A stretch of DNA of 34,806 bases from Chloroflexota bacterium (GTDB lineage: Bacteria > Chloroflexota > Dehalococcoidia > Lucifugimonadales > UBA3495). Position 1 is the stretch's first letter. Each line of letters opens with the position of its first letter. This document shows positions 5,192 to 34,806 of the stretch, one piece after another. The notes beneath the pieces were generated by a model that worked only from the letters and a program-made list of their open reading frames with translations, was not told the DNA's origin and ran no database searches. The translations under genes and the position numbers were made by a program. Location of the stretch: the NCBI GenBank assembly GCA_026710825.1, contig JAPOQH010000092.1, positions 1-34,806 of the forward strand, read 5' to 3'.

Positions 5192-6217
5192 CTAGCTCTC
5201 GTCCACCGAGTACACCCGCACCGCCGTGTCGTGGAACATCGCCGCCCGCTCGCTGGCCGAGTAGCCCACGGACAGCCGCTTGAACGCGTTGTACATCACG
5301 TTGTACGAGTAGGACACCTTGTCCACCGGGAAGTTGCTCTCGAACATGCACCGGTCCGGACCAAACTGCTCGATGCAGTAGTTCACCAGCGGCGCCATGT
5401 CGTTGGCCAACTCCTCGGAACTCGCCGGAACGTCCCGCAGGTGCCAGTCGAACCCCGTGCGCGGCATCCCGATACCGCCCAGCTTGATCACCACGTTGGG
5501 GCACTCCGCCGCCGCCGCGATGCCCTGCCGCCAGGTCGCCAGCGTCTCATCGCTGTTCGAGTAGGGACCCACCCGCAGCAGTCCGCCGATGTGGTTCAGG
5601 ATGATCGTCAGGTCGGGCACCGCCTTGGCAAACTCCGCCAGCTCGAACATCTGCGGGAAGTACATCCAGCCTTCCAGCGTCAGCCCCATGCTCGCCAGCA
5701 CCCGTGCGCCAGCGCGAAAATTGTCGCTGGACATCTGGTGCCCGGCCTGGTGTGCTGCCGTATTCTCAATCTCCGGGTGCGGGTCCCACGTCACCGAGTG
5801 CCGGATGCCGCGGAACCGGTTGGGACTCGCCGCCTGCAGCGCCTCCAGCACCGGCTTGACACCGTCGCCCAGGTTCAGGTTGGCGTGACCCACGATGGAC
5901 GCCGCCGCGCGGCCCGAGCCGTACAGCCCGCTGGCCGATGCCGCCGCCAGACCCTGCACGAATTCAACCTCGCCCACCGGCCGCATCTCCTCCGGCCCGG
6001 TGGTGCGGTACATCGACCGCGCCTCCACGAACACCGTCGAGGTCACGTTGTGGCCGCTGTTGATGTCGGCGGCCAGCTCGTGCAGCAGGTAACGCTGGTA
6101 GGGAATCCGCTCGGTGCGGTAGTCCCAGAAGTGGTGGTGCGGGTCGCAGATGGGTATCTCGGGCTCCAGCGCATCTTCCTGCCGGAGCGCGTGCCAGTCA
6201 TTGCCTCCGAATGGCAT
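5192..6217 (-). CDS. TIM-barrel metal-dependent amidohydrolase (Amidohydro_2), paralogue of the 940-1959 gene
   Basis: A 341-residue amidohydrolase-2 protein with DPHHH at residues 25-29, LNHIGG mid-protein and FESNFPVDK near the C-terminus, all at positions equivalent to the neighbouring paralogue. The start is taken at the ATG 6215-6217 because AGGAGG lies 7 bases upstream; the frame continues to a TTG at 6265 with no better site. The two paralogues are on the same strand and are separated only by the protease and a dead HEPN-like gene, consistent with an old tandem duplication later split by insertion. The substrate is unknown; small lactone or pyrone hydrolysis is the usual family role. 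Confidence 0.88.
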   Translation of the reverse strand: MPFGGNDWHALRQEDALEPEIPICDPHHHFWDYRTERIPYQRYLLHELAADINSGHNVTSTVFVEARSMYRTTGPEEMRPVGEVEFVQGLAAASASGLYGSGRAAASIVGHANLNLGDGVKPVLEALQAASPNRFRGIRHSVTWDPHPEIENTAAHQAGHQMSSDNFRAGARVLASMGLTLEGWMYFPQMFELAEFAKAVPDLTIILNHIGGLLRVGPYSNSDETLATWRQGIAAAAECPNVVIKLGGIGMPRTGFDWHLRDVPASSEELANDMAPLVNYCIEQFGPDRCMFESNFPVDKVSYSYNVMYNAFKRLSVGYSASERAAMFHDTAVRVYSVDES

Positions 6218-6341
6218 ATCCCTGCCTCCTGTTTTCGGTGATAGTGTTGCCGGGTTCTTGCTCAATAAAAGGGCGCCGGCGGCACGGAGGAATCCGCAAG
6301 CTCACCGACGCCGGAATCATAACACAGGGGCTGGCACGCCC

Positions 6342-16228: not shown

Positions 16229-16819
16229 ATGACGTCGCAATCAACTACCGCAGCGCCGCCAGTCACACTGGAGGAATACGCCGCGTTGCCACAGCATCCT
16301 CGCTATGAATTGGTCAAAGGAGTCCTGGTCCAGCAGATGGTAGCCTCAGAAGAGCACGAACATACCGGCTCGTTGGTTGTCATTAGGGTCGGCAATCACG
16401 TGCTGATGAACAGTCTGGGCCGGGTTTACTTGAGCAACCGCGGCTACGTCACCGGCCCGAATTCCCCTGCCACTTCCCGCATGCCCGACGTTTCCTTCGT
16501 ATCCAACGAGCGCCTGGACCAGCCCGAGTTAGCGGGAATGCTCTACAACGGCGCCCCAGACTTGGCCGTGGAAATACTCTCCGACAGCAATACGCCGGCG
16601 GAAATAGCGCAAAAAATCGCCGAGTACCTCAACGCCGGCGGCAAGGCCGTCTGGGTCATCGACATCGACGCCCGCACCCTCACCGTCCACACCCCCAACG
16701 CGCCGCCTCTCACTCTCACCGACGCCGACACCATAACCGGCGCCGACTACCTCCCCGGCTTCACCTGCCCTCTCGCCGACCTCCTGCCGGCCATCGCCTC
16801 TTCAACCAACGACGCCTAA
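16229..16819 (+). CDS. Uma2-family PD-(D/E)XK endonuclease-like protein
   Basis: A 196-residue Uma2 (DUF820) protein of full family length. The restriction-endonuclease-like fold is marked by YELVKGVLV (Glu27), MPDVSFVS (Asp87), DLAVEILSDSN (Glu115) and AQKIAEYLNAGGKAVWVIDID, where a lysine or glutamine supplies the last active-site position. GAGGAGG lies upstream of the ATG. The stop TAA overlaps the stop of the convergent minus-strand gene by four bases (CTAA). Physiological role unknown; this family is expanded in many Chloroflexota. Confidence 0.9.
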   Translation: MTSQSTTAAPPVTLEEYAALPQHPRYELVKGVLVQQMVASEEHEHTGSLVVIRVGNHVLMNSLGRVYLSNRGYVTGPNSPATSRMPDVSFVSNERLDQPELAGMLYNGAPDLAVEILSDSNTPAEIAQKIAEYLNAGGKAVWVIDIDARTLTVHTPNAPPLTLTDADTITGADYLPGFTCPLADLLPAIASSTNDA

Positions 16820-17145
16820 ACCAGCGACGCTCTGCGACCCAAGGTAATCCCGTCGGGCAGCGCGATCGTCGCCCTCAGATTGCGGAACAGCAGGAACCGG
16901 CTCACCGACAAATCCACCCGCTCAGCGTAGTCGGCAATGCCCGGCGCCAGCAGCAGTTCGATGTCATCCTGCTCCGCGCTCTCATAGGCCTCCAGGTTCC
17001 GCCGCCGTCGCACGTTGGTATCGACCGATACCTCAACAGACTCACCGGTTCAACCCTTCCAGCAAAGCAGGTCAATCACGGCCCGCCCTCCCTTGTTCCG
17101 GATGAACTGGGCGGCCTCGGCCGTTATTTCCAACTGAGCGGTCAT
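16816..17145 (-). CDS. Candidate selenoprotein, CC/Se-motif family-like, in-frame TGA at codon 32
   Basis: From the ATG 17143-17145 (AGAGGG about 8 bases upstream) the frame reads MTAQLEITAEAAQFIRNKGG and on to DLLCWKG, meets TGA at 17050-17052, and continues in the same frame TGESVEVSVDTN to a TAG at 16816-16818: 109 codons with TGA as Sec32. The TGA lies in the turn where, from memory, the HesB-like CC/Se-motif (seleno)proteins carry CC or CU. A perfect hairpin with a GGTC apical loop starts 13 bases after the TGA and its loop is 23 bases after it, matching bacterial SECIS geometry. The downstream 77 codons are not decayed. If TGA were read as stop only a 31-residue peptide would result. 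The usual Cys next to Sec is Gly here. A recent nonsense mutation is the alternative. It follows hicA by 11 bases on the same strand. Confidence 0.55.
17014..17037 (-). promoter_or_regulatory. Candidate bacterial SECIS element
   Basis: On the minus strand GGTATC-GGTC-GATACC folds into a 6-bp perfect stem with a GGTC loop. After a two-base bulge (GA) the stem is extended by GTT/AAC. The loop begins 23 bases after the TGA at 17050-17052. E. coli fdhF has a GGUC in its SECIS loop at a similar distance. Confidence 0.5.
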
Positions 17146-17156
17146 ATCATTGCCCT

Positions 17157-17444
17157 CTAATCCAGTGGTTGCCCATCCCAGGGAGCCTCAGGGTCCAAAT
17201 ACCGGCGCGGAATATCACCACGCAAAGCCGCGCGGAACTCGTCTGCACTGTTCATCTTTAGATCATCAATAGCAATTTTACCCATCAGCAAGGCGTTGAT
17301 TTCCTTGTCGCCGTGGGACACACGGGTAGTTATCCTCAACCATTCGTGGTGGAAATATGAGTGGTGGCTGTTATTTTGCAAGAATCTCATCCGTCGGAGC
17401 AAACGCAATAGTTCCCGGGTGCTGACATTGGCGATTCTCGGCAT
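17157..17444 (-). CDS. HicA-like toxin (copy 1)
   Basis: A 95-residue small basic protein: an N-terminal helix RELLRLLRRMRF, a strand with SHHSYFHHEW carrying the histidine expected in the HicA double-stranded-RNA-binding fold, then VSHGDKEI and a C-terminal LKMNSADEFRAALRGDIP helix and tail. HicA toxins are mRNA interferases held inactive by HicB. Its start is two bases after the stop of the HicB-like gene, so translation is probably coupled; no ribosome binding site is visible. The C-terminal 34 residues are identical to copy 2. It is longer than classic HicA (about 60-80) through the conserved tail. Confidence 0.7.
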   Translation of the reverse strand: MPRIANVSTRELLRLLRRMRFLQNNSHHSYFHHEWLRITTRVSHGDKEINALLMGKIAIDDLKMNSADEFRAALRGDIPRRYLDPEAPWDGQPLD

Positions 17445-17446
17445 CG

Positions 17447-17737
17447 CTAGGCTGGTGCTGGGATCGAAGGGTGAGCCACCTGACGCACCCAGGGGGAAAC
17501 ACCTTCCGCGATCAGATCTTCAACCAATTTGTCCAATTCGACCCTCGCCGCCTGGCCCACGCTCACCCGGTCGGGTTCCATCTCCAGGAAGCAGGCAATC
17601 GCTTCGGATACATCTGCCAAAGCCTCTGCTTCTGTGTCCCCCTGTCCGTGGCATCGGCGCACAGCAGGGCAAATCGCCGCATAGCAGATCGACCCGTCCG
17701 ACAGGGTACCCCGCCAAACTACAACGTCGTATTCCAT
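17447..17737 (-). CDS. HicB-like antitoxin (copy 1)
   Basis: A 96-residue protein beginning MEYDVVVWRGTLSDGSICYA, with the HicB hallmark GQGDTEAEALADVSEAIACF around residues 36-55. HicB antitoxins bind and block HicA and repress their own operon. AGGAG stands 7 bases before the ATG (17735-17737). The first 30 residues are nearly identical to copy 2, while the second half, expected to contact the toxin or DNA, differs strongly. It is the first gene of a hicB-hicA pair, the reverse of the common hicA-hicB order. Confidence 0.75.
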   Translation of the reverse strand: MEYDVVVWRGTLSDGSICYAAICPAVRRCHGQGDTEAEALADVSEAIACFLEMEPDRVSVGQAARVELDKLVEDLIAEGVSPWVRQVAHPSIPAPA

Positions 17738-17765
17738 AACCCAACTCCTTGCTCGCCCGGTTTTC

Positions 17766-18104
17766 CTAATCCAGCGGTTGCCCATCCCAGGGAGCCTCAG
17801 GGTCCAAATATCGGCGCGGAATATCACCGCGCAAAGCCGCGCGAAATTCGTCGGCGCTGTTCATCTTGAGCTGTCTGATTGCTATGCGGCCCATGAGATC
17901 GGCATCAATCTCTTTATCCCCGTGAGAGATTTTCGTCCACAAGTTCAACCATTCGTGGTAAAAATTTGCGTGATCGCGGTCTTCTCTATCAAATCTCATT
18001 CTGTGGAGCAATCTGATCAGGTCCCGGGGTCTTACATTCGCAATCTTGGGTATTACTGCACAGGTATAGGGAATCTCCGCGGCTCCACTTGGCGTACCCA
18101 ACAC
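17766..18104 (-). CDS. HicA-like toxin (copy 2), start codon uncertain
   Basis: The core matches copy 1: IPKIANVRPRDLIRLLHRMR, then DHANFYHEW with the probable active histidine, SHGDKEI and the same final 34 residues. At the place of the copy 1 ATG this copy has ATA (18051-18053), overlapping the hicB stop. The frame is open to a GTG at 18102-18104 without a ribosome binding site; that is the boundary given here. By comparison with copy 1 the real start would be the ATA by coupling from hicB, or the gene may be poorly translated. This makes copy 2 possibly weakened. Confidence 0.6.
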   Translation of the reverse strand: MLGTPSGAAEIPYTCAVIPKIANVRPRDLIRLLHRMRFDREDRDHANFYHEWLNLWTKISHGDKEIDADLMGRIAIRQLKMNSADEFRAALRGDIPRRYLDPEAPWDGQPLD

Positions 18105-18346
18105 TCGACGCCGTCTGCGTTCAACTCAGACATCTCTTCGCCCAGTGCGTCCTGTGCTGCCTGGCCCGTCTTTACTTTCCCGGGCATCTTCTCCAAAAAC
18201 AATGCCATGGTATCTGCAACGTCGGCTAGGAGTTCCTCTTCAGTGTCGCCTTGCCCATGTGCATCGGATATTGCCGGGCAAATCGCCGCATAACAGATCG
18301 ACCCGTCCGACAGGGTACCCCGCCAAACTACAACGTCGTACTCCAT
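18053..18346 (-). CDS. HicB-like antitoxin (copy 2)
   Basis: A 97-residue protein opening with the same MEYDVVVWRGTLSDGSICYA as copy 1 and carrying GQGDTEEELLADVADTMALF. The C-terminal half (KVKTGQAAQDALGEEMSEL) is different from copy 1. AGGAGG lies 8 bases before the ATG 18344-18346, the stronger of the two ribosome binding sites. The gene overlaps or abuts the start of hicA copy 2. It is probably the first gene of the whole run that includes both hicBA pairs and the selenoprotein candidate. Confidence 0.75.
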   Translation of the reverse strand: MEYDVVVWRGTLSDGSICYAAICPAISDAHGQGDTEEELLADVADTMALFLEKMPGKVKTGQAAQDALGEEMSELNADGVECWVRQVEPRRFPIPVQ

Positions 18347-18378
18347 GACCGCCCCTCCTTGGTCAAACAATTATACGG

Positions 18379-18993
18379 CTATGCGGCCTCTCCAGATTCG
18401 GCAGCCAACAACAGCGCGTTCCGAGCCTCAATGGACGCCGGATGCACCGACGATCCATTGTCCAGGAAGCGGGCGATGTTTTTGGTGAGGAACATTAACA
18501 TCGCAGCCGTCAGGTCAGTCTCCGCCAGTTCTCCCATCTCGGGCTGCCAGGGGTACCGCTTGAGTTTCACGGGATCCAGCTTGTCAGCCAGGAAGATGAT
18601 GTGGCCGATGGAGTCGCCGCCCGTGGGGTTCCCAGTAGTATGCCAGTAGATGGCATCGTAGAGCTGCGGGTGGTTCAGCCCGTCCTCCCGCTTCAGCAAC
18701 TCCGCGCCCACCATTCCATGCAGAATCTTCGCGTTCCGCCGTTCGTAGTTCGTCACCGGCGGCAGGTCGTACTCCTCCATCCGCAGCAGGTTCTCCACGC
18801 CGGAGAAGTGCTTGGTGGCGTCATGCGCCAGCGCGGCCAGACCCACGGCGTCGGGATCCTGTCCATGCTTTTCGCAAAGCCCGCGGGCAATCTGCTCCAC
18901 CCTCTGACAGTGCTCACAGAGCCCGGCGGGCAGGCGGCGCATCCGCCGGTGGATGCGGTCATAAACTCGGCCGGGGATTTCAATGGTAGTCAT
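18379..18993 (-). CDS. HD-domain hydrolase, YqeK-like
   Basis: A 204-residue HD-superfamily phosphohydrolase. Metal ligands are visible as His28 (EHCQRV), His57-Asp58 in ALAHDATK, His92 (LHGMVGAELL) and His118 (AIYWHTTG), the order seen in YqeK, which cleaves diadenosine tetraphosphate. YqeK normally lies beside nadD; here nadD is 5.5 kb away on the other strand. The N-terminus is about 20 residues longer than compact YqeK. It follows the hicBA block on the minus strand but with its own start. The role as Ap4A hydrolase is inferred from the motif set. Confidence 0.8.
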   Translation of the reverse strand: MTTIEIPGRVYDRIHRRMRRLPAGLCEHCQRVEQIARGLCEKHGQDPDAVGLAALAHDATKHFSGVENLLRMEEYDLPPVTNYERRNAKILHGMVGAELLKREDGLNHPQLYDAIYWHTTGNPTGGDSIGHIIFLADKLDPVKLKRYPWQPEMGELAETDLTAAMLMFLTKNIARFLDNGSSVHPASIEARNALLLAAESGEAA

Positions 18994-19056
18994 GGACTGG
19001 TCTCCCTCCCCGACTCGGTGTCGAGATTACCGCGCTACACTTGCAGTTACAGAACT

Positions 19057-19413
19057 CTAACCCATATCCCCCAGGGCGCGGCCGCCCAGCAGGTGCATGT
19101 GAGGCCACGCGATGGTCTGGCCGGCGTCCTCGCCGTTGTTCATCACCAGACGGTAGCCGCTGATGGTAACGCCCTCGCGCCGGGCCATCTCCGCCGCGAC
19201 GACGAACAGGTGGCCCATGATCGCCTCCATCGCCGGGCTGATGTAATCCAGTCCGTTGATGGGCATGTTGGGGATTATCAGCAAATGCACCGGCGCCTTC
19301 GGGTTGATGTCGCGCACCACGAAACATCGCTCATCCCTGAATATCACGTCCGGATGCAGCGGGTCCCGGGCCATGGCGGCGAACGGCGAACTGCGGGCAG
19401 GGGTCATGGTCAT
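19057..19413 (-). CDS. HIT-family nucleotide-binding protein (HINT-like)
   Basis: A 118-residue histidine-triad protein. The fold markers are FRDERCFVVRDINPKAPVH, LLIIPNMPINGL, and the triad segment AWPHMHLLGGRALG at residues 102-115. His105 and His107 correspond to the last two triad histidines, including the catalytic one; the first is replaced by Trp103. HINT enzymes hydrolyse nucleoside phosphoramidates or acyl-AMPs. The neighbours are a YqeK-like Ap4A hydrolase on one side and an acyl-CoA dehydrogenase on the other, all on the same strand. A REP-type palindrome separates it from the latter. Confidence 0.88.
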   Translation of the reverse strand: MTMTPARSSPFAAMARDPLHPDVIFRDERCFVVRDINPKAPVHLLIIPNMPINGLDYISPAMEAIMGHLFVVAAEMARREGVTISGYRLVMNNGEDAGQTIAWPHMHLLGGRALGDMG

Positions 19414-27753: not shown

Positions 27754-28110
27754 TCAGATTGCGAAGGAAGTGCCGCAGCCGCAGGCCTTCTTGGCGTTGG
27801 GATTCTCGAACACGAAGCCCTTGCCGTTCAGCCCGTCCGAAAAGTCAAGCTGCGTACCCACCAGGTAGATGTAGGACTTCTTGTCCACCATCACTTTCAC
27901 GCCAAATTGCTCGACGATCTTGTCCGACTCGCGTTCCTGGTTGGTGATATCAAGGTCGTAGGTGAGGCCCGAGCAGCCACCGCCCTTCACGGCGACGCGA
28001 AGTCCGATGTTGTCGATGATGCCCTGTTTCTCGGCGAAATACTTGATCTTCTCGGCAGCCTTCTCCGAAATTTCAACGGTGAGTTCGGCGCCGTTCTGTG
28101 TGATTGGCAT
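27754..28110 (-). CDS. A-type iron-sulfur carrier protein (IscA/ErpA family)
   Basis: A 118-residue HesB-type Fe-S carrier. The three cysteines are Cys46 in KGGGCSGLTY and Cys110/Cys112 in ACGCGTSF, as required for cluster binding. GAGGAGG lies ten bases upstream of the ATG 28108-28110. It transfers clusters to target apoproteins; the YgfZ-like neighbour is consistent with that. ErpA, IscA and SufA cannot be told apart from sequence alone. Confidence 0.94.
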   Translation of the reverse strand: MPITQNGAELTVEISEKAAEKIKYFAEKQGIIDNIGLRVAVKGGGCSGLTYDLDITNQERESDKIVEQFGVKVMVDKKSYIYLVGTQLDFSDGLNGKGFVFENPNAKKACGCGTSFAI

Positions 28111-33566: not shown

Positions 33567-34667
33567 ATGAAGGCATCCTACTTCGGCTGCATGAGCTACG
33601 CTGACCGGGACAAGTTTCCTGCCGGCTGGCCGGTGCCGCCAGCGTTCCACGACCCCGAGGTTTCCCAGCGCTCCTACGCCGAGGGCATCGCCGAATGTGA
33701 ACTGGCCGAATCCCTCGGCTTCGACTGGATCAGCCTCTCCGAGCATCACTACTCTGGCAACCGCACCACGCCCAATCCGGCGGTCATGGCCGCCGCCGTC
33801 GCCGAGCGCTGCAAGACCGCCCGCATCGCCCTGCTCGGCCAATTGCTCCCCTTGAGCAATCCCATTCGCGCCGCCGAGGAAATCGGGATGCTCGACAACC
33901 TCACCGGCGGTCGCCTCATCGCCGCCTTCATGCGCGGCACCCCCGGCGAGGACCAGGTCTACGACCTCAACCCGTCCGAGGGACGCGAACGGCTCATCGA
34001 GGCTATGGACCTCGTGCTCAAGGCCCTCACCGAACCCCAGCCCTTTTCCTGGGAGGGCCGGCACTACCAGTACCGCACCGTGTGCGTCTGGCCCCAGCCC
34101 GTGCAGCGTCCCCTGCCGCCGCTCATCGTAGCCACTCGCAGCCCCGACACCGTCCAGTACGCCGCCGCCAACCGCCTGGGCCTCGGTGTTTCCTACGACC
34201 ATCCCGACGACATGACCATCACCGTCGGCAAATACCGCGATTGGTGCGCTGACGCCGGCTGGGAACCGTCGCCGGATGACATCGTCTACCGCGGCGGCAT
34301 CTGCCTCGGCGAGACCGACGCGGATGCAGAGGCCCTCAGGGACCGTGTCGAAGCCGCCGGCGGTGGCAGCGGCACCTTCATCGGCCGCTCCCTGTCCCAG
34401 GCCGTTCAGTCCGCTCGCGCCTCAGGGCAATCCGGAAATCAACCGCCGCCGGCTCCCCCACGCGCCCGCACCGGCGGGACCATCCGCATGCTCAACTTCG
34501 TCGGCAGCCCCGACACCGTGGCGCGCCAACTCCGCGAATACCACGATAGCTGTGGCGTCGGCGTCGCAGATCTCGCCTTCCAGCAACCCGGCCTCCACCA
34601 CAAAGACGTCATGACCCAAATCGAACTCTTCGGCAAAGCAGTCCTCCCCCAAATCCACGAGTTTTGA
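33567..34667 (+). CDS. LLM-class flavin-dependent oxidoreductase (luciferase-like monooxygenase)
   Basis: A 366-residue FMN/F420-dependent TIM-barrel enzyme. The luciferase family is marked by SLSEHHYS with its active-site histidine, LLPLSNPIRAAEEIGMLDNL, and GRLIAAFMRGTPGED. A C-terminal WPQPVQRPLPPLIVATRSPD block follows and the end is VLPQIHEF. Start at the ATG 33567 with GGTGGGGGA directly upstream; the frame is open upstream but over REP elements. Substrate unknown. The stop codon TGA lies within the first unit of the 18-bp tandem array. Confidence 0.92.
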   Translation: MKASYFGCMSYADRDKFPAGWPVPPAFHDPEVSQRSYAEGIAECELAESLGFDWISLSEHHYSGNRTTPNPAVMAAAVAERCKTARIALLGQLLPLSNPIRAAEEIGMLDNLTGGRLIAAFMRGTPGEDQVYDLNPSEGRERLIEAMDLVLKALTEPQPFSWEGRHYQYRTVCVWPQPVQRPLPPLIVATRSPDTVQYAAANRLGLGVSYDHPDDMTITVGKYRDWCADAGWEPSPDDIVYRGGICLGETDADAEALRDRVEAAGGGSGTFIGRSLSQAVQSARASGQSGNQPPPAPPRARTGGTIRMLNFVGSPDTVARQLREYHDSCGVGVADLAFQQPGLHHKDVMTQIELFGKAVLPQIHEF

Positions 34668-34806
34668 CCTCTCGCCATCGTTTGACCTCTCGCCATCGTT
34701 TGACCTCTCGCCATCGTTTGACCTCTCGCCATCGTTTGACCCATCGCTATCGTTTGACCCATCGCTATCGTTTGACCCATCGCTATCGTTTGACCCATCG
34801 CTATCG
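34663..34806. repeat. 18-bp tandem repeat array, eight units, running off the window
   Basis: Four units TTTGACCTCTCGCCATCG (34663-34734) are followed by four units TTTGACCCATCGCTATCG (34735-34806). The two unit types differ at three positions and are homogeneous in blocks. The first unit supplies the TTTTGA end of the oxidoreductase gene. No unit is interrupted by unique spacers. Confidence 0.92.

Follow-up and report, generated by a model that had tools for sequence, protein, structure and literature searches.

A gene of an uncultured Chloroflexota bacterium is, on comparative sequence evidence, a selenoprotein gene whose internal stop codon is read as selenocysteine (Sec). The gene lies in a 34,806-nt window (the whole stretch of DNA analyzed), with its ATG at 17145–17143, its TAG at 16818–16816, and a single in-frame stop, TGA 17052–17050 (Table 1). 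The first-pass annotation had described a 109-codon frame broken only by TGA at codon 32, leaving the strand unstated, and had expected gene callers to cut it to 65 residues. We confirmed the frame, which is on the minus strand, and the open reading frame that ordinary rules give after the TGA indeed has 65 residues and a GTG start. Homology to 14 Chloroflexota loci and one actinomycete locus extended over the whole length of the gene.

Table 1. Coordinates of the selenoprotein gene, its elements and neighbors (window positions), and loci with a terminal TGA tail
Feature	Position or loci	Strand	Details
Selenoprotein gene	16816..17145	-	109 codons, ATG to TAG, UGA at codon 32
In-frame TGA, codon 32, read as Sec codon	17050..17052	-	TGA in 68/72 homologous stretches
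Cys28 codon	17062..17064	-	Sole Cys, 4 residues before Sec (CWKGU); from translation
GAGGG, possible ribosome-binding site	17153..17157	-	Read from sequence
SECIS hairpin, 6-bp stem	17017..17032	-	GGTC loop 17026-17023; encodes end of E38 and peptide VSVDT
65-residue GTG-started remnant	16816..17013	-	ORF list; expected call of an ordinary gene caller
HD-domain gene, upstream	18379..18993	-	Pfam HD; relative in 14/16 loci compared
Uma2-domain gene, convergent, downstream	16229..16819	+	Pfam PF05685; stop overlaps the selenoprotein gene's stop
Terminal TGA and His tail	L082 (G158), L083, L085, L086, L088, L089, L091, L093-L106		

The TGA is kept across most homologues. A first scan of genome contigs yielded 15 loci, titled as Chloroflexota (Dehalococcoidia, Chloroflexi or SAR202) in 14 cases and as an actinomycete in one, the latter being the one occurrence seen outside Chloroflexota; all 15 carried TGA at the aligned codon. 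Profile A1 (21 sequences), searched in whole genomes, matched 35 of the 50 genomes of the window's family, giving 41 matches with exactly one TGA each and two nearby copies in 6 genomes. In a class sample of 393 genomes it matched 28, with one TGA in 27 and none in the weakest match (E 7.4e-4). The phylum sample (400 genomes) gave three matches: the window's own genome, G613 with TGA at the codon-32 site and at the end, and G448 with no TGA. The model of the NCBIfam family NF041239 ("CC/Se motif family (seleno)protein") found matches in 5/393 class and 4/400 phylum genomes and added two Cys sequences (G424 and G432). Since 14 of the 15 first-scan loci were the same records as genome matches and were counted once, the merged set comprised 72 stretches. 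According to the first-pass annotation, homologues all bearing an ordinary residue at codon 32 would point to a simple nonsense mutation; 68 of the 72 instead had TGA there, three had Cys (G424, G432 and G448, distant homologues forming one clade), and one weak match apparently had Ser (G157). Neither the window protein nor the one Cys homologue compared had a match among plasmids, and none of the 43 stretches of viral contigs that fit a pattern encoded a relative.

This distribution bears on two simpler readings of the locus. A nonsense mutation in a decaying gene, with translation ending at the TGA after 31 residues, would suit a genome in which TGA is a normal stop (it ends 3 of the 11 window genes examined) and a downstream remnant that has its own GTG. 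We consider it extremely unlikely, given that the TGA and the frame on either side of it are kept in nearly all stretches, across many genera, together with a conserved hairpin. A further reading, in which the locus makes a 31-residue peptide and, from the GTG at 17013 past the TGA, a second protein, is hardly credible either: the codon aligned with that GTG is not ATG, GTG or TTG in 7 of the 15 first-scan loci, all of which keep the TGA.

The machinery for Sec insertion, to which the first-pass annotation had tied its proposal, was present in the draft genome (137 contigs, 91.67% complete, 4.77% contamination), on contigs other than that of the window. Three genes scored over their cut-offs: selA (548 bits, C60), selB (366 bits, C93) and selD (377 bits, C87), the last itself with an in-frame TGA. 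A tRNA-Sec with anticodon TCA was called by ARAGORN and scored 66.4 bits to the Rfam model against a cut-off of 47, a threshold not specific by itself, because 5 of 14 control genomes pass it, as does a second place in this genome (47.9 bits) that ARAGORN calls tRNA-Ser. An open frame on either side of the TGA would also be expected if UGA were generally reassigned, or simply read through, to an amino acid other than Sec. We give this option almost no weight, as TGA acts as a stop in other window genes, the genome holds Sec machinery, and Cys occupies the site in three homologues.

The window carries the hairpin GGTATC-GGTC-GATACC, which starts 17 nt past the TGA and presents its loop 23 nt past it. 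In the SECIS of Escherichia coli fdhF, too, a short stem bears a GGUC loop, about as far from the UGA as here, but the single bulged U of the fdhF stem is missing from the window's upper stem. Of the 943 TGAs examined on both strands of the window, 1 had a GGTC loop on a perfect 6-bp stem, the hairpin starting 12–33 nt past the TGA. Published constraints on bacterial SECIS elements (G in the first two loop positions, 16–37 nt from the UGA; PMC13188914, Fig. 2 legend) agree with the window hairpin (23 nt, GGUC). As coded here, these constraints are passed by 63 of 68 Sec sites but also by 498 of the 943 window TGAs, so a generic match is no evidence. Rfam at gathering thresholds gave no match in the window.

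We compared the hairpin in 62 Sec genes (the 68 minus six tandem paralogues; 60 distinct sequences). All six stem pairs form in 54/62 and the loop is GGTC in 58/62. Among the distinct sequences 98.1% of cells were paired, against 25–56% when one side was slid by 1–3 columns. Shuffling the 3' letters within each pair still left a mean of 93.8% paired, because most columns hardly vary, yet 0 of 500 shuffles reached the observed value. No shuffle of the 500 reached the covariation score either, or the count of cells in which both sides had changed; the two weak measures of the five were the number of pairs with changes on both sides (reached by 78/500) and further pair types (83/500). RNAalifold on the alignment predicted only 4 of the 6 stem pairs. 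The pair formed by the third bases of a Val and an Asp codon was A-U in 35 genes, G-C in 25, A-C in one and G-U in one. The switch between A-U and G-C, at two synonymous third positions, requires no fewer than four changes on the best protein tree, and one genus (g13) has A-U in two genomes and G-C in two. A sign test on this switch had four independent pairs on supported branches, a number with which significance is unreachable. The stem and loop proposed in the first-pass annotation at SECIS distance were not only found but proved conserved, with compensatory synonymous changes. Its three-base-pair extension past a bulge exists in the window but is poorly conserved, the pairs forming in 39, 35 and 18 of the 60 distinct sequences.

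The second hairpin Val is GTC in 59/62 genes, against 150/415 other Val codons of the same genes; the hairpin Ser is TCG in 55/58 (elsewhere 71/343) and the hairpin Thr ACC in 59/62 (elsewhere 109/222). The hairpin codons are much more uniform than the rest of the same genes. Lying in coding sequence, the hairpin also spells the peptide VSVDT, which is invariant in the 21 A1 sequences; judged from the codons, the 62 Sec genes encode VSVDT (56), VPVDT (4) or VSVGT (2). The peptide is missing from the three Cys homologues and from the doubtful Ser sequence, and in the tandem paralogues whose hairpin has seemingly moved its Asp is Ser. The pattern would fit a peptide dictated by the RNA hairpin (window 17031–17017 and the same place in relatives), an idea that draws on one event, because the three Cys homologues form one clade, and on the single doubtful Ser sequence.

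None of the six tandem paralogues keeps the original stem intact. When folded alone, five showed an alternative hairpin 16 or 17 nt past the TGA and the sixth (G766b) showed none. These second TGA-bearing copies (L076–L081) adjoin the first, and in five of the six the hairpin has seemingly moved 6–7 bases towards the TGA.

Many relatives have a further TGA near the end of the gene. Among 27 Sec sequences from outside the window's family, the next stop in 21 is TGA, after which come 1–3 codons, a His and, directly or with a single codon between, a stop (e.g. HKHAPT-TGA-AH-stop; Table 1). Another four have Cys at the same place (PTCRH, LTCQH, PTCAH, PGCRH) and then a stop, and two (G613 and L023) have neither a terminal TGA tail nor Cys. 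Placing U and C at this position on the best tree requires four changes, and supported branches force two of these. The three homologues with Cys at the codon-32 site include two that are readable to their end, both finishing in WNGC plus four residues. The protein of the window's genus ends in LGRRAS or nearly so, lacking Cys or Sec there; the window's gene is without a second Sec site. In L090 (G212), the TGA that closes the PTCAH tail is followed in the same frame by EPACAH and another stop, echoing that tail.

A hairpin commonly follows the terminal TGA. By a rule set after the folds had been seen (GT loop, at least five consecutive pairs), it was present after 17 of the 21 terminal TGAs, the exceptions being G342, G276, G261 and G303, and after none of the four Cys codons; the same rule found hairpins at 0/35 true stops of the window's family and at 20/927 other TGAs in the 21 loci. 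Arm cells were paired in 124/147 cases across the 21 sequences, against a mean of 74 and a highest value of 93 in 2000 shuffles of arms among sequences; 124/147 is inflated because the best-pairing hairpin was chosen per sequence, as it was for the 927 control TGAs. In the sequences inspected, the tail stems are located past the true stop and hence are not accounted for by coding. The terminal TGA might still be an ordinary stop and the hairpin a transcription terminator or a product of chance: GC-rich hairpins are common after genes, and both the four sequences without a hairpin and the late choice of the rule speak for caution. We regard this as improbable, since it leaves unexplained a short His tail at a fixed distance in 21/27 sequences with Cys there in 4/27, as well as the contrast between 17/21 and the control counts, and no T-run is evident past the hairpins in the sequences inspected. 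Comparative evidence thus favors the terminal TGA of many relatives as probably a second, C-terminal Sec codon. As its hairpin lies beyond the true stop, annotation would cut such a second Sec off.

The window protein belongs beside a known family. NF041239 was its only NCBIfam match at E ≤ 1, with 39.0 bits (E 6.2e-10) against a cut-off of 40, which places it in a sister branch rather than among the curated members. All 21 A1 members matched the same model at E up to 0.1, and two of ten proteins scanned singly exceeded the cut-off (L020, 47.4; L022, 42.1). Both NF041239 (Moor_selen_rel) and the window protein have Sec or Cys at the same site, but in the window protein the residue right before Sec is Gly (GU) and the Cys stands at −4. 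The adjacent Cys that we took as the mark of NF041239 comes from the family name and the Cys members found; CC occurs in the three Cys homologues and CU in G613, 1 of the 68 Sec homologues. In Table 1 of PMC13188914, NF041239 figures among the predicted selenoprotein families, with a single Sec and the motif CxxU, whereas many relatives here are without Cys and have a probable second Sec. Across the 68 Sec homologues, Cys stands at −4 in 26, three residues before Sec in one and directly before it in one; another 28 lack any Cys, G313 among them being covered only from Sec onward. Neither CC/CU nor CxxU thus fits the branch. The relation to CC/Se-motif proteins drawn in the first-pass annotation thus stood, just under the cut-off, without the adjacent Cys that the name implies. 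Its description of the selenoprotein as new was too strong, the family being already listed as predicted in that table, although the selenoprotein reading itself held.

Structure prediction offers a possible fold. No Pfam family, PF01521 included, matched the window protein at E up to 1; the 21 A1 members together gave just two isolated weak matches, to unrelated families. A profile searched against the sequences of solved structures had no match at E up to 5. An AlphaFold2 model built from 15 sequences had a mean pLDDT of 88.2. Foldseek against the PDB returned HI1723 as the best hit (E 0.004; none reached E 0.001), and six of the top ten hits were titled SufA or IscA, with TM 0.42–0.56 over the IscA-type hits. 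With hhalign against the window's own IscA-type protein (27754–28110), the Sec column fell on the Cys of GCSG at 29.6% probability. The model thus points to a likely IscA-like fold, and we consider Sec insertion at codon 32 combined with such a fold highly probable. The A-type carriers IscA and SufA have a C-terminal pair of ligand Cys, which the window protein, with Cys28 as its only Cys, lacks. The predicted fold, if right, would be shared with IscA/SufA/ErpA (PF01521, TIGR00049), as would the placement of the Sec column on the GCSG Cys; just one of the 21 A1 members reached TIGR00049 (E 0.028). TIGR01911 (HesB-like selenoprotein) and NF038090 (IscA/HesB) also comprise small HesB/IscA-related proteins; the window selenoprotein matched neither at E up to 1, whereas the IscA-type protein at 27754–28110 matched both. 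TIGR01911 appears in PMC13188914 as a selenoprotein family with the motif UxGP.

We propose that SelB, with GTP and Sec-tRNA-Sec, would bind the GGUC hairpin 23 nt downstream of UGA-32 and deliver selenocysteine there in place of termination, an event of which we are nearly certain. The product would probably fold like IscA/SufA, as modeled, and place Sec32 near the position of the first ligand Cys of IscA. Many relatives in the class would seem to add a second Sec (or Cys) 3–5 residues from the C-terminus, beside a His. As one joint reading, which we find reasonably likely, the genes would form a two-Sec, IscA-like branch of Chloroflexota in which the first Sec replaces a ligand Cys and its coding hairpin maybe dictates VSVDT; the second Sec would lie 3–5 residues from the C-terminus beside His, with a GU-loop hairpin past the true stop; and Sec and Cys would switch among relatives, the window's lineage keeping only the first site.

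As to function, the protein would most likely use Sec in a small selenolate site to bind a metal, Fe-S or chalcogenide ligand or hand it on, and in the window's lineage Cys28 would be the partner of Sec32; we hold this view tentatively, at somewhat less than even confidence. A thiol/selenol redox protein working through a Cys-Sec bridge is a serious competitor to a ligand-binding IscA-like carrier, although it too falls short of an even chance. It accords with the CxxxU motif of the window's genus and the Cys at −4 in 26/68 homologues, and PMC13188914 expects redox roles for most uncharacterized selenoproteins and gives CxxU for NF041239. Set against it are the 28 of 68 Sec homologues that lack any Cys (counting the one seen only from Sec on), a model that resembles IscA/SufA and not thioredoxin, and the His-rich C-terminal site of many relatives. 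Given where Cys stands or is missing in the 68, a Cys-Sec bridge cannot be the general mechanism of the branch.

The comparison settles the window TGA as a Sec codon and adds a deep Chloroflexota sequence set to a family for which a review of 2026 gives a single Sec and the motif CxxU (PMC13188914, Table 1). In the literature searched, with subscription papers and NCBI records lying outside the search, NF041239 was mentioned only in PMC13188914, and nothing joined selenoprotein with Chloroflexi and SAR202. The accessible portions of PMC1794560, PMC12013277, PMC2398784 and PMC5029168 contain no mention of the branch. This kind of selenoprotein is already known; within the bounds of that search, the novelty lies in the branch itself, in its members without Cys and in the second Sec that its relatives probably have. 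Because Cys homologues are few and distant and 28/68 proteins are Cys-free, searches that depend on Cys homologues may overlook genes of this kind, a limit that the deep-Sep authors state for their own method (PMC12013277). If the C-terminal UGA also encodes Sec, proteins now annotated to end there would be missing a short tail that holds a residue likely to act as ligand or in catalysis. In that case the family would serve as a test case in two respects, Sec placed on a fold resembling that of an Fe-S carrier and a conserved peptide shaped by an RNA signal.

Four small genes (17157–18370) precede the selenoprotein gene on its strand, together with HD-domain, HIT-domain and acyl-CoA dehydrogenase genes. 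A relative of the HD gene stands directly before the selenoprotein gene in some of the 16 loci compared. We rejected conserved neighbors as a guide to function: the HD gene recurs in most of these loci, yet the few more distant loci listed besides mostly have other neighbors. The HD- and HIT-domain genes are side by side in the window (18379–19413, minus strand), likewise in most related family loci; proteins of both kinds can act on dinucleoside polyphosphates. The small genes at 17157–18370 (minus strand) form two adjoining pairs that are mutually alike, one with a weak HicB-like match (E 0.037), and may be HicAB-like. Elsewhere on the minus strand, two clearly similar open reading frames (940–1959 and 5192–6265), presumably amidohydrolase paralogues, both have ICDPHHH near their start, and another near the window's end (34439–34798) opens with the short repeat MGQTIA/MGQTMA.
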